This document shows positions 551-43,381 of a stretch of 64,000 nucleotides of DNA, piece after piece; position 1 is the stretch's first letter, and the number at the start of each line of letters is the position of its first letter. The position numbers and the translations under genes were made by a program. Below the pieces are notes generated by a model. That model searched no databases and was not told the origin of the DNA. It worked only from the letters and a program-made list of their open reading frames with translations. This DNA is from Halorubrum aethiopicum (lineage in GTDB: Archaea; Halobacteriota; Halobacteria; Halobacteriales; Haloferacaceae): positions 1,240,001-1,304,000 of the forward strand of contig NZ_LOAJ01000001.1 in the NCBI RefSeq assembly GCF_001542905.1. The letters are read 5' to 3'.

Positions 551-803
551 GGTGTGAACGCGTCCAAAGCCCCAGGCGCGAGGAGGTCGTACGCTTGCTG
601 TGCTCCTCTCTCGCTCGCTCGTTTCACTCGCTCTCTCGTTGCGGTGCTTGCGTCGCCTACGGCCTCCTCGCGACTGCCCCTTTGAGTCCCACCCCGCACA
701 GCACCGCACCTCACGCCTCCCCAGCCTCGCGGCTCGCGGTTTCACCGCTCGCCGCGTCCCTCGCGGGCTCCTCGTGCCCCTGCGGGGCACTCGGAGGCGC
801 GCC
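551..803 (+). repeat. Dispersed structured repeat, copy A (fills the 513-912 gap)
   Basis: This full-length copy of the family runs from a GGTGTGAAC head to a GGAGGCGCGCC tail. The 5' arm at 565-586 begins CAAAGCCCCAG and the 3' arm at 663-684 ends GCCCCTTTG. CAAAG pairs with CTTTG, and beyond a 4x4 internal loop 12 of 13 further positions pair. After the stem come the blocks TTTGAGTCCCACCC and CTCACGCCTCCCCAGCC. A terminal hairpin at 774-790 has arms GTGCCCC and GGGGCAC with a TGC loop. Apart from this copy and the promoter of the next gene (AT-rich box near 884-890), I see nothing else in 513-912. Confidence 0.8.
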
Positions 804-4590: not shown

Positions 4591-4886
4591 GTTGCTGGCG
4601 CGGTGACTACCGCCAAAGCCCCAGTCACGAGGACTTGGGGGCCTCGTTGCGCGCTTCAGTCGTTCGCTCTGCTCACTCCTTCCAGTGCTTACGTCGGCCG
4701 CCGTCGTCCTCGCGACTGCCCCTTTGAGTCCCACCCGACCGCACAGCCCCGCCCCTCACGCCTCCCCAGCCTCGCGGCTCCTTTCAGTCGCCGCGTCCCT
4801 CGCGGTCGGGTTCGCGCCCTCCGGGCGCTCACCGGCGCAGGGCGAGAGCGGAGCTCTCGCTTGAAGCCGGCGGCGGAGCCGCCGGC
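4591..4886 (+). repeat. Dispersed structured repeat, copy B (fills the 4453-4983 gap)
   Basis: Full-length copy with head GTTGCTGGCGCGGTGA. The stem arms are 4614-4634 and 4706-4726, with CAAAG pairing CTTTG plus 11 of 12 further pairs. The invariant TTTGAGTCCCACCC block follows, then a terminal hairpin at 4814-4828 (GCGCCC, loop TCC, GGGCGC). Two extra perfect hairpins with GGA loops sit after it: 4842-4860 (8-bp arms) and 4866-4886 (9-bp arms). The rest of 4453-4983 holds the rpl37ae promoter (about 4478-4485) and the thi4 promoter with its operator-like palindrome. Confidence 0.8.
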
Positions 4887-4963
4887 GACGCCACCGCACC
4901 GCGAGTCGGATCGGTACTCGGACGACATCGACCGTATCGACCACAACGACTAATACTACCCAG

Positions 4964-9190: not shown

Positions 9191-9390
9191 GACCGCGGAA
9201 GACTTCTCCAGAGCCCCAGCCAACCGCGCGGCCGCCCCGCACCTCACGCCTCCCCGGCCTCGTCGCCGGACTACGTCCGGCTGCAAGCGAGAGCTTCGCT
9301 CTCGCCCTGTCGGCCGTCCTCCGCGTCGCTCCGGCCGCCCGACTCCCTCGCGGTCGGGTTCGCGCCCGCCGGGTGCTCACCGGCGCGCCG
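9191..9390 (+). repeat. Dispersed structured repeat, copy C (internal deletion; fills the 9169-9500 gap)
   Basis: This copy keeps the head (GACTTCTCCAGAGCCCCAG) and the CCGCACCTCACGCCTCCCC block but has lost everything between them, including the long stem. It then carries hairpin 9265-9281 (GCCGGAC, loop TAC, GTCCGGC) and hairpin 9287-9305 (GCGAGAGC, loop TTC, GCTCTCGC). The terminal hairpin is 9362-9376 (GCGCCC, loop GCC, GGGTGC with one G-T wobble), followed by TCACCGGCGCGCC. The remaining part of the gap holds the nfeD promoter (CTTATCC near 9471-9477). Confidence 0.75.
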
Positions 9391-9500
9391 CCGCGAATCG
9401 GTGACTCCCTCCCGCTACTGAACGGTTTCGCGCCGGCGTGAGGCTCACTCCCGTGTCCGTCGTACCACCACTTATCCGCCTCCCAGCCGTACGGCGGGAC

Positions 9501-13468: not shown

Positions 13469-13648
13469 GTTGTCGGCGTGGTGACCTGCTCCAGAGCCCC
13501 AGTCGATCAGCTATAAACGACCGTTGCCAAAGACGCGACCGACACCGCCAAAGCTCCAGCCGGGAGGACTCGCGCGCCTCGCTGTGGCTCCCTCCGCTTC
13601 GCTTCGGTCGACGCGTCCCTCGCGGGCTGGCTCGCAGACGCGTCGACC
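13469..13648 (+). repeat. Dispersed structured repeat, copy D (rearranged; in the 13466-13858 gap)
   Basis: Head GTTGTCGGCGTGGTGACC leads to CCAGAGCCCCAG. A second head-like segment then ends in GCCAAAGCTCCAG near 13560, so the 5' end appears twice. The 3' stem arm and TTTGAGTCCCACCC block are missing. The CCCTCGCGGGCT core lies inside a perfect inverted repeat, GGTCGACGCGTC at 13606-13617 and its complement at 13637-13648. Downstream come a strong TTTATATA box (13663-13670) and the nuo promoter (CTTATG near 13813-13818). Confidence 0.7.
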
Positions 13649-13662
13649 GCGCCGCGCGCCAG

Positions 13663-41665: not shown

Positions 41666-42430
41666 GTGAGCCGATCTCGAACGCGCGTCGACGCCCACGT
41701 CAAGGTCCTCGACGACCGCGTCGTCGCCCGCGCGAAGGAGCGCGGGATCGACGCGCTCGTGTACGCGCCTCACTTCACCCGACTGCCGGCGATCCGCGAG
41801 CGCGCGGCCCGGTTCTCCGACGACGACCTGACGGTGGTCCCCGGCCGCGAGGTGTTCACCGGCGACTGGGGGAACCGCCGACACCTCCTCGCGATCGGGC
41901 TCTCCGATCCCGTCCCCGACTACGTCACCTTCGAGGGGGCGATGGCGGAGTTCGAACGCCAGGACGCCGCGGTGCTCGTCCCGCACCCCTCGTTCGCGAC
42001 CATCTCGCTCACCCGGCCCGAACTCGCCGCTCACGACGCCCGTGTCGACGCCATAGAGACGTACAACACGAAGCTGCTCGGCCACCAGAACGGCCGCGCG
42101 CTCGACATCGCGGACGACCTCGACCTCCGCGGGTTCGGCTCCTCGTACGCCCACCTCCGCCCGACGGTCGGCGAGGCCTGGACTGCCTTCGAGGGCGACC
42201 TCCCCGACGAGGAGGCGATCGTCGAGGCGTTCCGCGAGGGCCGCCCCCGGACGGTCGTCCACCGCGGCGGTCTCGACCACCGGCTCCGCGGGCTCGTCGA
42301 GTTCGGCCACCTCGCCTACGAGAACACGTGGGCGAAGGCCGAGCGGCTGTTCCTCTCCGGCGAGGAGCCCACGCTCCCCTCGAACGTCGCCTACGAGGGC
42401 CGGTTCGACGACGTGGCCGTCTACGAGTGA
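41666..42430 (+). CDS. PHP-domain metal-dependent phosphoesterase-like protein
   Basis: This 254-residue protein resembles the PHP superfamily. It has VDAHVKVLDDRVVARAKERG at the start, YAPHFTRLPAIRERA, the family-like VPGREVF and LVPHPSFATISLT, and a late acidic/His segment (GFGSSYAHLRPTVGEAW). The usual first DxHxH motif is reduced to DAHVKV, so metal content may differ. Related proteins hydrolyse phosphoesters of nucleotides or sugars; the substrate is unknown. The GTG at 41666 (MSRSRTRVDAHVKV) was chosen over far-upstream starts that lie in repetitive, Arg-rich shadow sequence. Confidence 0.78.
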   Translation: MSRSRTRVDAHVKVLDDRVVARAKERGIDALVYAPHFTRLPAIRERAARFSDDDLTVVPGREVFTGDWGNRRHLLAIGLSDPVPDYVTFEGAMAEFERQDAAVLVPHPSFATISLTRPELAAHDARVDAIETYNTKLLGHQNGRALDIADDLDLRGFGSSYAHLRPTVGEAWTAFEGDLPDEEAIVEAFREGRPRTVVHRGGLDHRLRGLVEFGHLAYENTWAKAERLFLSGEEPTLPSNVAYEGRFDDVAVYE

Positions 42431-42537
42431 GCGTCGGCGGGGATCGGTCGGCCCGTTTCCGTTCGAAACGACCGTCATGCTTCGGGTGCTTATAGAGCGG
42501 GTATTTTATCGGTGATCGAGGTGGTGAAAAAGAGATC

Positions 42538-42783
42538 GTTGCTGGGGCGGTGAACTCTTTCAAAGCCCCAGCCGGCTCCGGTCGAGGGCCTCGCTGTGCT
42601 CCTCGCTCACTTCGTTCGCTGCGGTGCTTGCGTCGGCCGTCTTCCCGGAGCCGGCTGCCCCTTTGAGTCCCACCCGACCGCAACCACCTCGCACCTCACA
42701 CCTCCCCAGCCTCGCTGCTCACTTCGTTCGCAGCGTCCCTCGCGGGCTCCTCGCGCCTCTCCGGGGCACTCGGAGGCGCGCCA
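42538..42783 (+). repeat. Dispersed structured repeat, copy E (in the 42431-42889 gap)
   Basis: The best-preserved copy, with head GTTGCTGGGGCGGTGAAC. The stem arms are 42561-42581 and 42645-42665: CAAAG/CTTTG plus 12 of 12 further pairs. The inner arm sequence (AGCCGGCTCCGG) is quite different from copies A and B but still perfectly complementary. An additional GCTGGGGC/GCCCCAGC pairing is possible at the head. The TTTGAGTCCCACCC block and tail are conserved. The terminal hairpin 42753-42769 is imperfect (6 of 7 pairs). It lies between convergent genes; I see no gene in the rest of 42431-42889. Confidence 0.85.
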
Positions 42784-42889
42784 CCGCTCCGGCGATCGCT
42801 CACTCCTTCGGCTGTACTGAGCGGTTGAGAGTGGAAAAACGGTCCGCGGCTGACTATCTCGACGAGACCGCTCCCCGCCGATTTCGGCC

Positions 42890-43381
42890 TCAGAGCCCGA
42901 AGCCGGCGGTCGCCGACGAGAGGTCCACGTCGAGCGAGACGACGTAGGTGGTGACCGCCCAGAACGCGGCTATCTCGAGGGCGGTGATGATAACGGTCAC
43001 GAGGTCCGCGTACTTGCTGCTCGTGGTGACGCCGAACGGCAGCGAGAACTCCTTGTCCGAGAACGGGTGAAAGAGCGCGATCCCCCGGCGGCTGCCCAGG
43101 AGATCCAGCAGGTAGTGGGTCACCACGCCGACCCAGACGAAGTGGAGGTTGTCGAAGACGATCGGGTACGCGAGGACGACCGCGAGCACCGGGAGGCTGT
43201 GGAGCGTCTTCCGGTGTTTGCCGAAGGCGGTGTCGACGTCGGGGAAGAGCGCGCCCAACACGATCGGTACCGTGATCTGGGCGACCTTCCGGGCGGTGGC
43301 GACGTCGACGCCCGGCTCCAGCACGAACCCGAGCCCGACGGCGAGAAGCAGCGCGTTCAACACGTGGCCGCGTTTGTTCAT
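42890..43381 (-). CDS. YdjM-like metal-dependent hydrolase-type membrane protein
   Basis: This 163-residue membrane protein matches the LexA-binding, YdjM (DUF457-type) family. Conserved acidic and His residues appear in LGALFPDVDTAFGKHRKTLHS (D-x-D and H motifs) and VVTHYLLDLLGSRRGIALFHPF. Four or five helices are seen. Family members are predicted membrane-bound metal-dependent hydrolases; the true reaction is unknown. The ATG at 43381 is directly upstream of a short run of 20-bp tandem repeats. Confidence 0.8.
   Translation of the reverse strand: MNKRGHVLNALLLAVGLGFVLEPGVDVATARKVAQITVPIVLGALFPDVDTAFGKHRKTLHSLPVLAVVLAYPIVFDNLHFVWVGVVTHYLLDLLGSRRGIALFHPFSDKEFSLPFGVTTSSKYADLVTVIITALEIAAFWAVTTYVVSLDVDLSSATAGFGL

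Follow-up and report, generated by a model that had tools for sequence, protein, structure and literature searches.

What, in a 64,000-nucleotide stretch of Halorubrum aethiopicum DNA (the window), are the paired stem arms that change from copy to copy and still match their own partners? The preliminary description placed them in three copies, A (565-586 with 663-684), B (4614-4634 with 4706-4726) and E (42561-42581 with 42645-42665), and the coordinates, sequence and pairing that it gave for all three are accurate. Its observation was right, but the family is far larger than it saw. The element is a DNA repeat without annotation that is very common in haloarchaea; one copy lies in the region of 42561-42665. 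Its behavior is that of a mobile, dispersed repeat, a reading that the preliminary description did not contain. Its distinguishing mark is that pairing is kept while stem sequence is free. On our best reading it is a MITE/PATE-like element, non-autonomous, whose hairpins are under selection. In full, we tentatively identify the feature as hairpin 1 of an interspersed haloarchaeal repeat, non-coding and present in many copies, which spreads non-autonomously as a mobile element and works in the form of a folded single strand, an account to which we give just short of an even chance.

Architecture of the element

The arms first noticed make up just one hairpin, the first, of a larger unit that measures about 225-250 bp from CAAAG to GGCGCGCCACCGC; many copies additionally possess a leader and a trailer. 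In plus orientation the order is leader, hairpin 1, GAGTCCCACCC, linker CCTCACGCCTCCCCAGCCTCG, hairpin 2, GTCCCTCGCG, hairpin 3, GGCGCGCCACCGC and, in some copies, trailer. Hairpin 1 has a median length of 113 bp (mostly 105-113 bp), and hairpins 2 and 3 usually consist of two stems with a TC/TC loop between them. Besides A, B and E, the window holds two decayed copies, at about 9209-9392 and 13549-13660. The parts found in the window are as follows.

565-684, minus strand: hairpin 1 of copy A (covariance model R1, 102.7 bits)
684-803, plus strand: remainder of copy A, with GAGTCCCACCC, linkers, hairpins 2 and 3, and GGCGCGCC
4614-4726, minus strand: hairpin 1 of copy B (R1, 118.6 bits)
4726-4895, plus strand: remainder of copy B, with additional hairpins near the hairpin 3 end
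9209-9392, plus strand: copy C, a derivative without hairpin 1, with CAGAGCCCCAG, linker, enlarged hairpin 2 and hairpin 3
13549-13660, plus strand: copy D, a derivative in decay, preceded at 13492 by a short tandem leader unit
42490-42560, plus strand: leader of copy E (..GATCGTTGCTGGsGCGGTGAACtcttt), common to other class I copies
42561-42665, minus strand: hairpin 1 of copy E, with CAAAG/CTTTG closing helix, CCC/CCC loop, copy-specific arms and conserved interior (R1, 123.9 bits)
42665-42675, plus strand: conserved unpaired block GAGTCCCACCC, 3' of hairpin 1
42694-42714, plus strand: conserved linker CCTCACaCCTCCCCAGCCTCG
42713-42735, plus strand: hairpin 2 (CGCTGCTCACTTCGTTCGCAGCG)
42735-42744, plus strand: conserved linker GTCCCTCGCG
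42745-42777, plus strand: hairpin 3 (GGCTCCTCGCGCCTCTCCGGGGCACTCGGAGGC), two stems flanking a TC/TC loop
42775-42787, plus strand: conserved end GGCGCGCCACCGC
42788-42820, plus strand: trailer TCCGGCGATCGCTCACTCCTTCGGCTGTACTGA, found in a subset of copies

In hairpin 1 of copy E, the CAAAG/CTTTG helix leads into a 3x3 loop in which C faces C, and from there into the copy-specific stem. An inverted-repeat search recovered these arms as 42560-42581 and 42645-42666 (22 nt, 86% complementary); the CCC/CCC loop accounts for the three columns that do not pair. Folded as DNA, the hairpin scored better than 200 of 200 shuffles on each strand (z -3.2 minus, -3.8 plus). With one mismatch allowed, CAAAGCCCCNG has 7 matches in the window against 2.3 expected, a number reached in 0 of 100 shuffles. 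The leader was recognized from recent duplicates, whose similarity extends some 75-100 bp upstream of CAAAG; the flank homology of copy E with a second Halorubrum species (G011) likewise ends near it. At the other end of copy E, CACCGCTCCGGC is complementary to the upstream GCTGGGGCGGTG (42541-42552), so that the two could pair.

Tail-to-tail pairs of hairpin 1 are a further arrangement seen in other genera (AACAGCCAGAAAGCCCC-hairpin-CCCCTTTCAGTCCCACCC-spacer-GGGTGGGACTGAAAGGGG-hairpin-GGGGCTTTCTGGCTGTT), and each of the two has arms of its own. The outer inverted repeats of these composites are perfect or near-perfect (AACAGCCAGAAAG..), whereas the inverted ends of Halorubrum copies amount to a weak AGTAC-like pair.

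Abundance and distribution

In the window's genome (G000) CAAAGCCCCNG has 113 matches, compared with 10 for the reversed control, and all the places listed are on the main chromosome. The same sequence exceeds background in most genomes of the genus, where copy number spans from background level to more than 200 (maximum 223 matches). The genome search proposed in the preliminary description found copies in most same-genus genomes, and its view of a Halorubrum family proved correct in that the element is Halorubrum-wide but too narrow in its limits: the exact 17-base block CCCCTTTSAGTCCCACC is present in 212 of 392 haloarchaeal genomes sampled across the order and in 62 of 95 genera, while its reversed pattern gave zero matches in every row of that search. 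Genomes that lack the exact block can still contain dozens of copies by covariance model R1 (59 matches in G075, where the exact block has none). Among the 80 loci listed from all prokaryotes, 79 are haloarchaeal. The other, in a Bacteroidales MAG (L160), lacks the hairpin and is due to chance. A viral origin was rejected, the exact block being found in 0 of 2.9 million viral contigs and blastn returning no phage records.

The lack of a named RNA family, as claimed earlier, held in our searches: Rfam gave no matches at gathering threshold across the window and none at E up to 5 for 42350-42900. Literature searches of an open library returned no description of the family, and most plasmid matches have no annotated feature beneath them. 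The copies are intergenic and scattered across the genome in both orientations.

Pairing is kept while stem sequence changes

The base-paired structure is conserved across genera and the stem sequence is not. In an alignment of 45 diverse hairpins, 93.8% of cells are paired and two-sided changes occur in 21 of 29 pairs. The covariation score, computed without a phylogeny model, is 0.585 as against 0.169 (sd 0.011) after shuffling, with 0 of 500 shuffles reaching it; slid versions of the structure score at most 0.101, a comparison in which the tested structure has an advantage, having been drawn from the same alignment. Likewise, across 40 arm clusters a fraction of 0.361 of the sequence pairs differ on the two sides and nevertheless stay paired, compared with 0.055 for shuffled ones. 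The earlier claim that copy-specific complementary arms reflect a structural constraint therefore holds at scale. Where that claim went too far was in treating three copies of one genome as direct evidence of selection, which by themselves they are not, given that copies trade entire hairpins as blocks and that one copy shows quasi-palindrome correction (see below).

The conserved and the changing positions both bear on this point. The CCC/CCC internal loop is kept in 241 of 242 hairpins, although the search pattern partly fixed this loop. The closing helix has four lineage-specific forms, all complementary: CAAAG/CTTTG, GAAAG/CTTTC, CGAAG/CTTCG (five G016 copies) and GGAAG/CTTCC (4 of 7 copies in G075 and G086). 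Taken together with single-column compensatory changes and strand-biased wobble pairs (see below), the constant mismatch and the lineage-wide changes of the closing helix argue for selection on structure. With its fold kept and its stem sequence free to change on either side, the repeat has the look of a mobile element recognized by its shape and not its sequence.

Which strand, and DNA or RNA

A rather unlikely alternative is that the minus strand is transcribed and that the hairpins are structured non-coding RNA, either the product of many genes or a SINE-like RNA spreading via RNA; its conserved purine-rich internal loops (GAC/GA, AA/RCA, A.A, GGG/GGG) would then bind protein. The covariation of the stems fits this idea, as do the purines conserved within the paired interior of hairpin 1 across genera. 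It also draws support from a haloarchaeal PATE distinct from the present element, for which strong reverse-orientation expression is reported in Halorubrum lacusprofundi (PMC10544981). A further point in its favor is the excess of minus-strand G.U in hairpin 1, where over the first 12 stem columns G.T/U outnumbers A.C by 27:7, 16:2 and 34:5 in three sets. This bias is absent over arms of up to 40 nt (22 vs 30), so the result depends on remaining within the stem, and hairpins 2 and 3 do not show it clearly. Nor is the mutational background uniform: the leader shows no matching bias (0.034 vs 0.044), but in the conserved blocks that are unpaired G>A is more frequent than C>T (0.055 vs 0.008), which could mimic a wobble bias, although the constraint on the sequence of these blocks counts against such an explanation. 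Strand-biased wobble, which counts for the main reading too, is thus suggestive of the acting strand rather than proof.

Several observations weigh against an RNA. No conserved promoter was recognized on either side of the element; a TATA-like block in the leader, considered as a candidate, is not conserved (TTATAG and TAGTGG alternate). Orientation relative to the downstream gene is unbiased (56 vs 48), derivatives that have lost hairpin 1 are common, and there is no Rfam family. On the minus strand, 43 of the 67 apical loops of hairpin 3 fit C(GNA)G or C(GNNA)G, and just 4 of the 16 tetraloops among these 43 are GNRA. Loops of the former kind are very stable in DNA, whereas RNA hairpins would favor GNRA. 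Since the apical loops obey a DNA-stability rule and no promoter was recognized, we lean slightly towards DNA over RNA for the folded single strand that would be the acting form.

Dispersal and turnover between sites

That the element disperses is shown by near-identical copies at unrelated loci: two of them (L013 and L059) share 399 bp at 96.5% identity, as is typical of MITEs, and further pairs have more than 300 bp in common at 88-93% identity. Movement is not fast, given that about 70% of mapped sites are common to G000 and G011. Between these two Halorubrum species flanks are mostly 80-97% identical and elements 62-86%. At the site of copy E the flanking genes directly adjoin in four genomes (G046, G059, G009 and G056), and in G011 an unrelated gene stands in place of the element. 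The translation of that gene (L070, 620-1530) resembles an HD-domain hydrolase. At other sites intergenic regions are plainly shorter in relatives; neither a target-site duplication nor a clean empty-site junction was seen at the sites compared, which weighs against the main reading. Replication-oriented insertion was also considered, but the apparent strand pattern was gone in a runs test (z -0.2) and a scan test; this too speaks against the main reading, since a single-strand mechanism tied to replication might produce strand clustering.

At orthologous sites hairpins are usually replaced whole (hairpin 2 differs in 14 of 15 and hairpin 3 in 7 of 7). Such block swaps would suit an explanation without any selection on shape, in which mutation itself, by template switching and quasi-palindrome correction, keeps the arms complementary and whole-hairpin gene conversion spreads them. 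In one copy (L066, plus strand, 9984) CTGGGGCTTTG stands in place of CTGCCCCTTTG (CTGCCCC to CTGGGGC), turning the 3' arm into a perfect complement and the whole into a perfect palindrome, which is likely a natural case of quasi-palindrome correction. At two orthologous sites (L298 and L282) the hairpin 1 interior runs in the opposite direction to that of the G000 copy, which is also in line with this explanation. We nevertheless judge it improbable. Correction should repair the CCC/CCC mismatch, yet nearly all copies keep it; by motif, the hairpin 1 interior is in forward orientation in 172 cases and reversed in 1; orthologous sites show two-sided single-column changes as well (for example, L009/L286, L035/L274 and L040/L282); wobble pairs are strand-biased; and the paired changes of the closing helix run lineage-wide.

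Least probable of the alternatives is a DNA site that acts in cis (as a cruciform) and serves the host, for instance in separating convergent genes, transcription termination or chromosome organization: many sites are common to species, neighbors are more often convergent than divergent (32 vs 18, with genes from a rough ORF caller) and the small replicons C2 and C3 of G000 have 0 copies against 10.4 expected by length, but copy number varies from background to over 200 inside one genus, strand and replication patterns are absent, and the convergent bias is explained by avoidance of promoters.

A proposed mobile element read by its shape

If the element is mobile, a putative enzyme supplied in trans would recognize the folded minus strand, probably as single-stranded DNA, by its shape together with short motifs at its ends (the closing helix, the CCC/CCC loop and AGTCCCACC), and would copy or insert the element into intergenic DNA. 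Were shape what is recognized, the arms could drift or be replaced freely while pairing lasts. It is possible, if doubtful, that this extends to a haloarchaea-wide class of DNA mobile elements, in which a putative archaeal enzyme reads the shape of the folded strand and not the stem sequence, and the arms diversify while the element stays active.

The closest known systems are the PATEs and SMRs of Haloquadratum (PMC3119063), although membership of our element is not established. PATEs are palindrome-associated transposable elements whose near-terminal palindromes are related to IS605-type transposons; as described there, they resemble the element in being haloarchaeal, non-coding, multi-copy and palindromic, in showing no target duplication and in being hit by nested insertions (PMC3119063). 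Like PATEs and other IS200/IS605 derivatives, the element indeed is too short to code and has palindromes, and no target duplication was seen at the sites compared. It differs in the covarying arms of its multi-hairpin unit, which the available text does not mention for PATEs (PMC3119063), and in its relation to the TnpB loci of G000, to which it showed no convincing resemblance. G000 has 4 TnpB genes only and 0 Y1 (TnpA) matches, and the flanks of its TnpB loci gave short weak matches to the element (best 35 bp at 80%, E 0.001); these four loci accordingly give a TnpB/PATE origin no convincing support. No transposase is linked to the element, which counts against the main reading. SMR-A, of about 110 bp, with prominent inverted ends, no target duplication, many copies and a transposase described as unknown, resembles the element in these features and hairpin 1 in size; by description, SMR types are commonly over 95% identical within a type, whereas the arms of the element differ between copies (PMC3119063).

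By analogy, the element may work like a modular mobile palindromic repeat.

Among bacteria, BOX, RPE, ERIC and bcr1 are modular structured repeats that, like the element, are interspersed, foldable and non-autonomous. The element differs from them in its restriction to haloarchaea, its lineage-specific closing helix and stems whose sequence varies much more than their fold. For the way it might work, the nearest comparison is with integron attC sites, which have short conserved ends and variable self-complementary arms and act through one folded strand; the element shows neither cassette arrays nor a core-site motif.

A structured, mostly unannotated element in over half of the sampled haloarchaeal genomes represents a natural experiment on shape-based recognition, and its dozens to hundreds of variants per genome are a resource for identifying whatever enzyme or other protein reads the fold. 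The element probably misleads haloarchaeal gene prediction and assembly; the covariance model is ready for use in annotation.

Insertions and neighboring repeats

Several copies carry extra hairpin pairs inserted within the hairpins of the element. These two-hairpin, REP-like insertions (L014-5527, L054-10094, L066+9984, L020-10325 and L036-14620) take the forms TCGCCGGCGG..GCTGCC..GCTG and GTTCG-hairpin-CGTGATGACG-hairpin-CGAACCACG, occur in both orientations and have variable yet self-complementary arms. Upstream of some copies there are tandem leader units of 51-57 bp (CAAAGCCCCAGyCGCTCGGCTGTACG..GCGGTGAACACCTC), located at 71205-71368 and 140268-140386 of contig C11 in G011 and at L015, L018, L019 and L030. 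A second repeated element (GAGTGAGCATCCGCGAGCGAAGCGAGCGGTTCACCGACGGAGCCGTCGAAGACGGCGGAGTCGGC) lies directly 3' of some copies and was seen in several right flanks, for example those of L022, L035 and L050.
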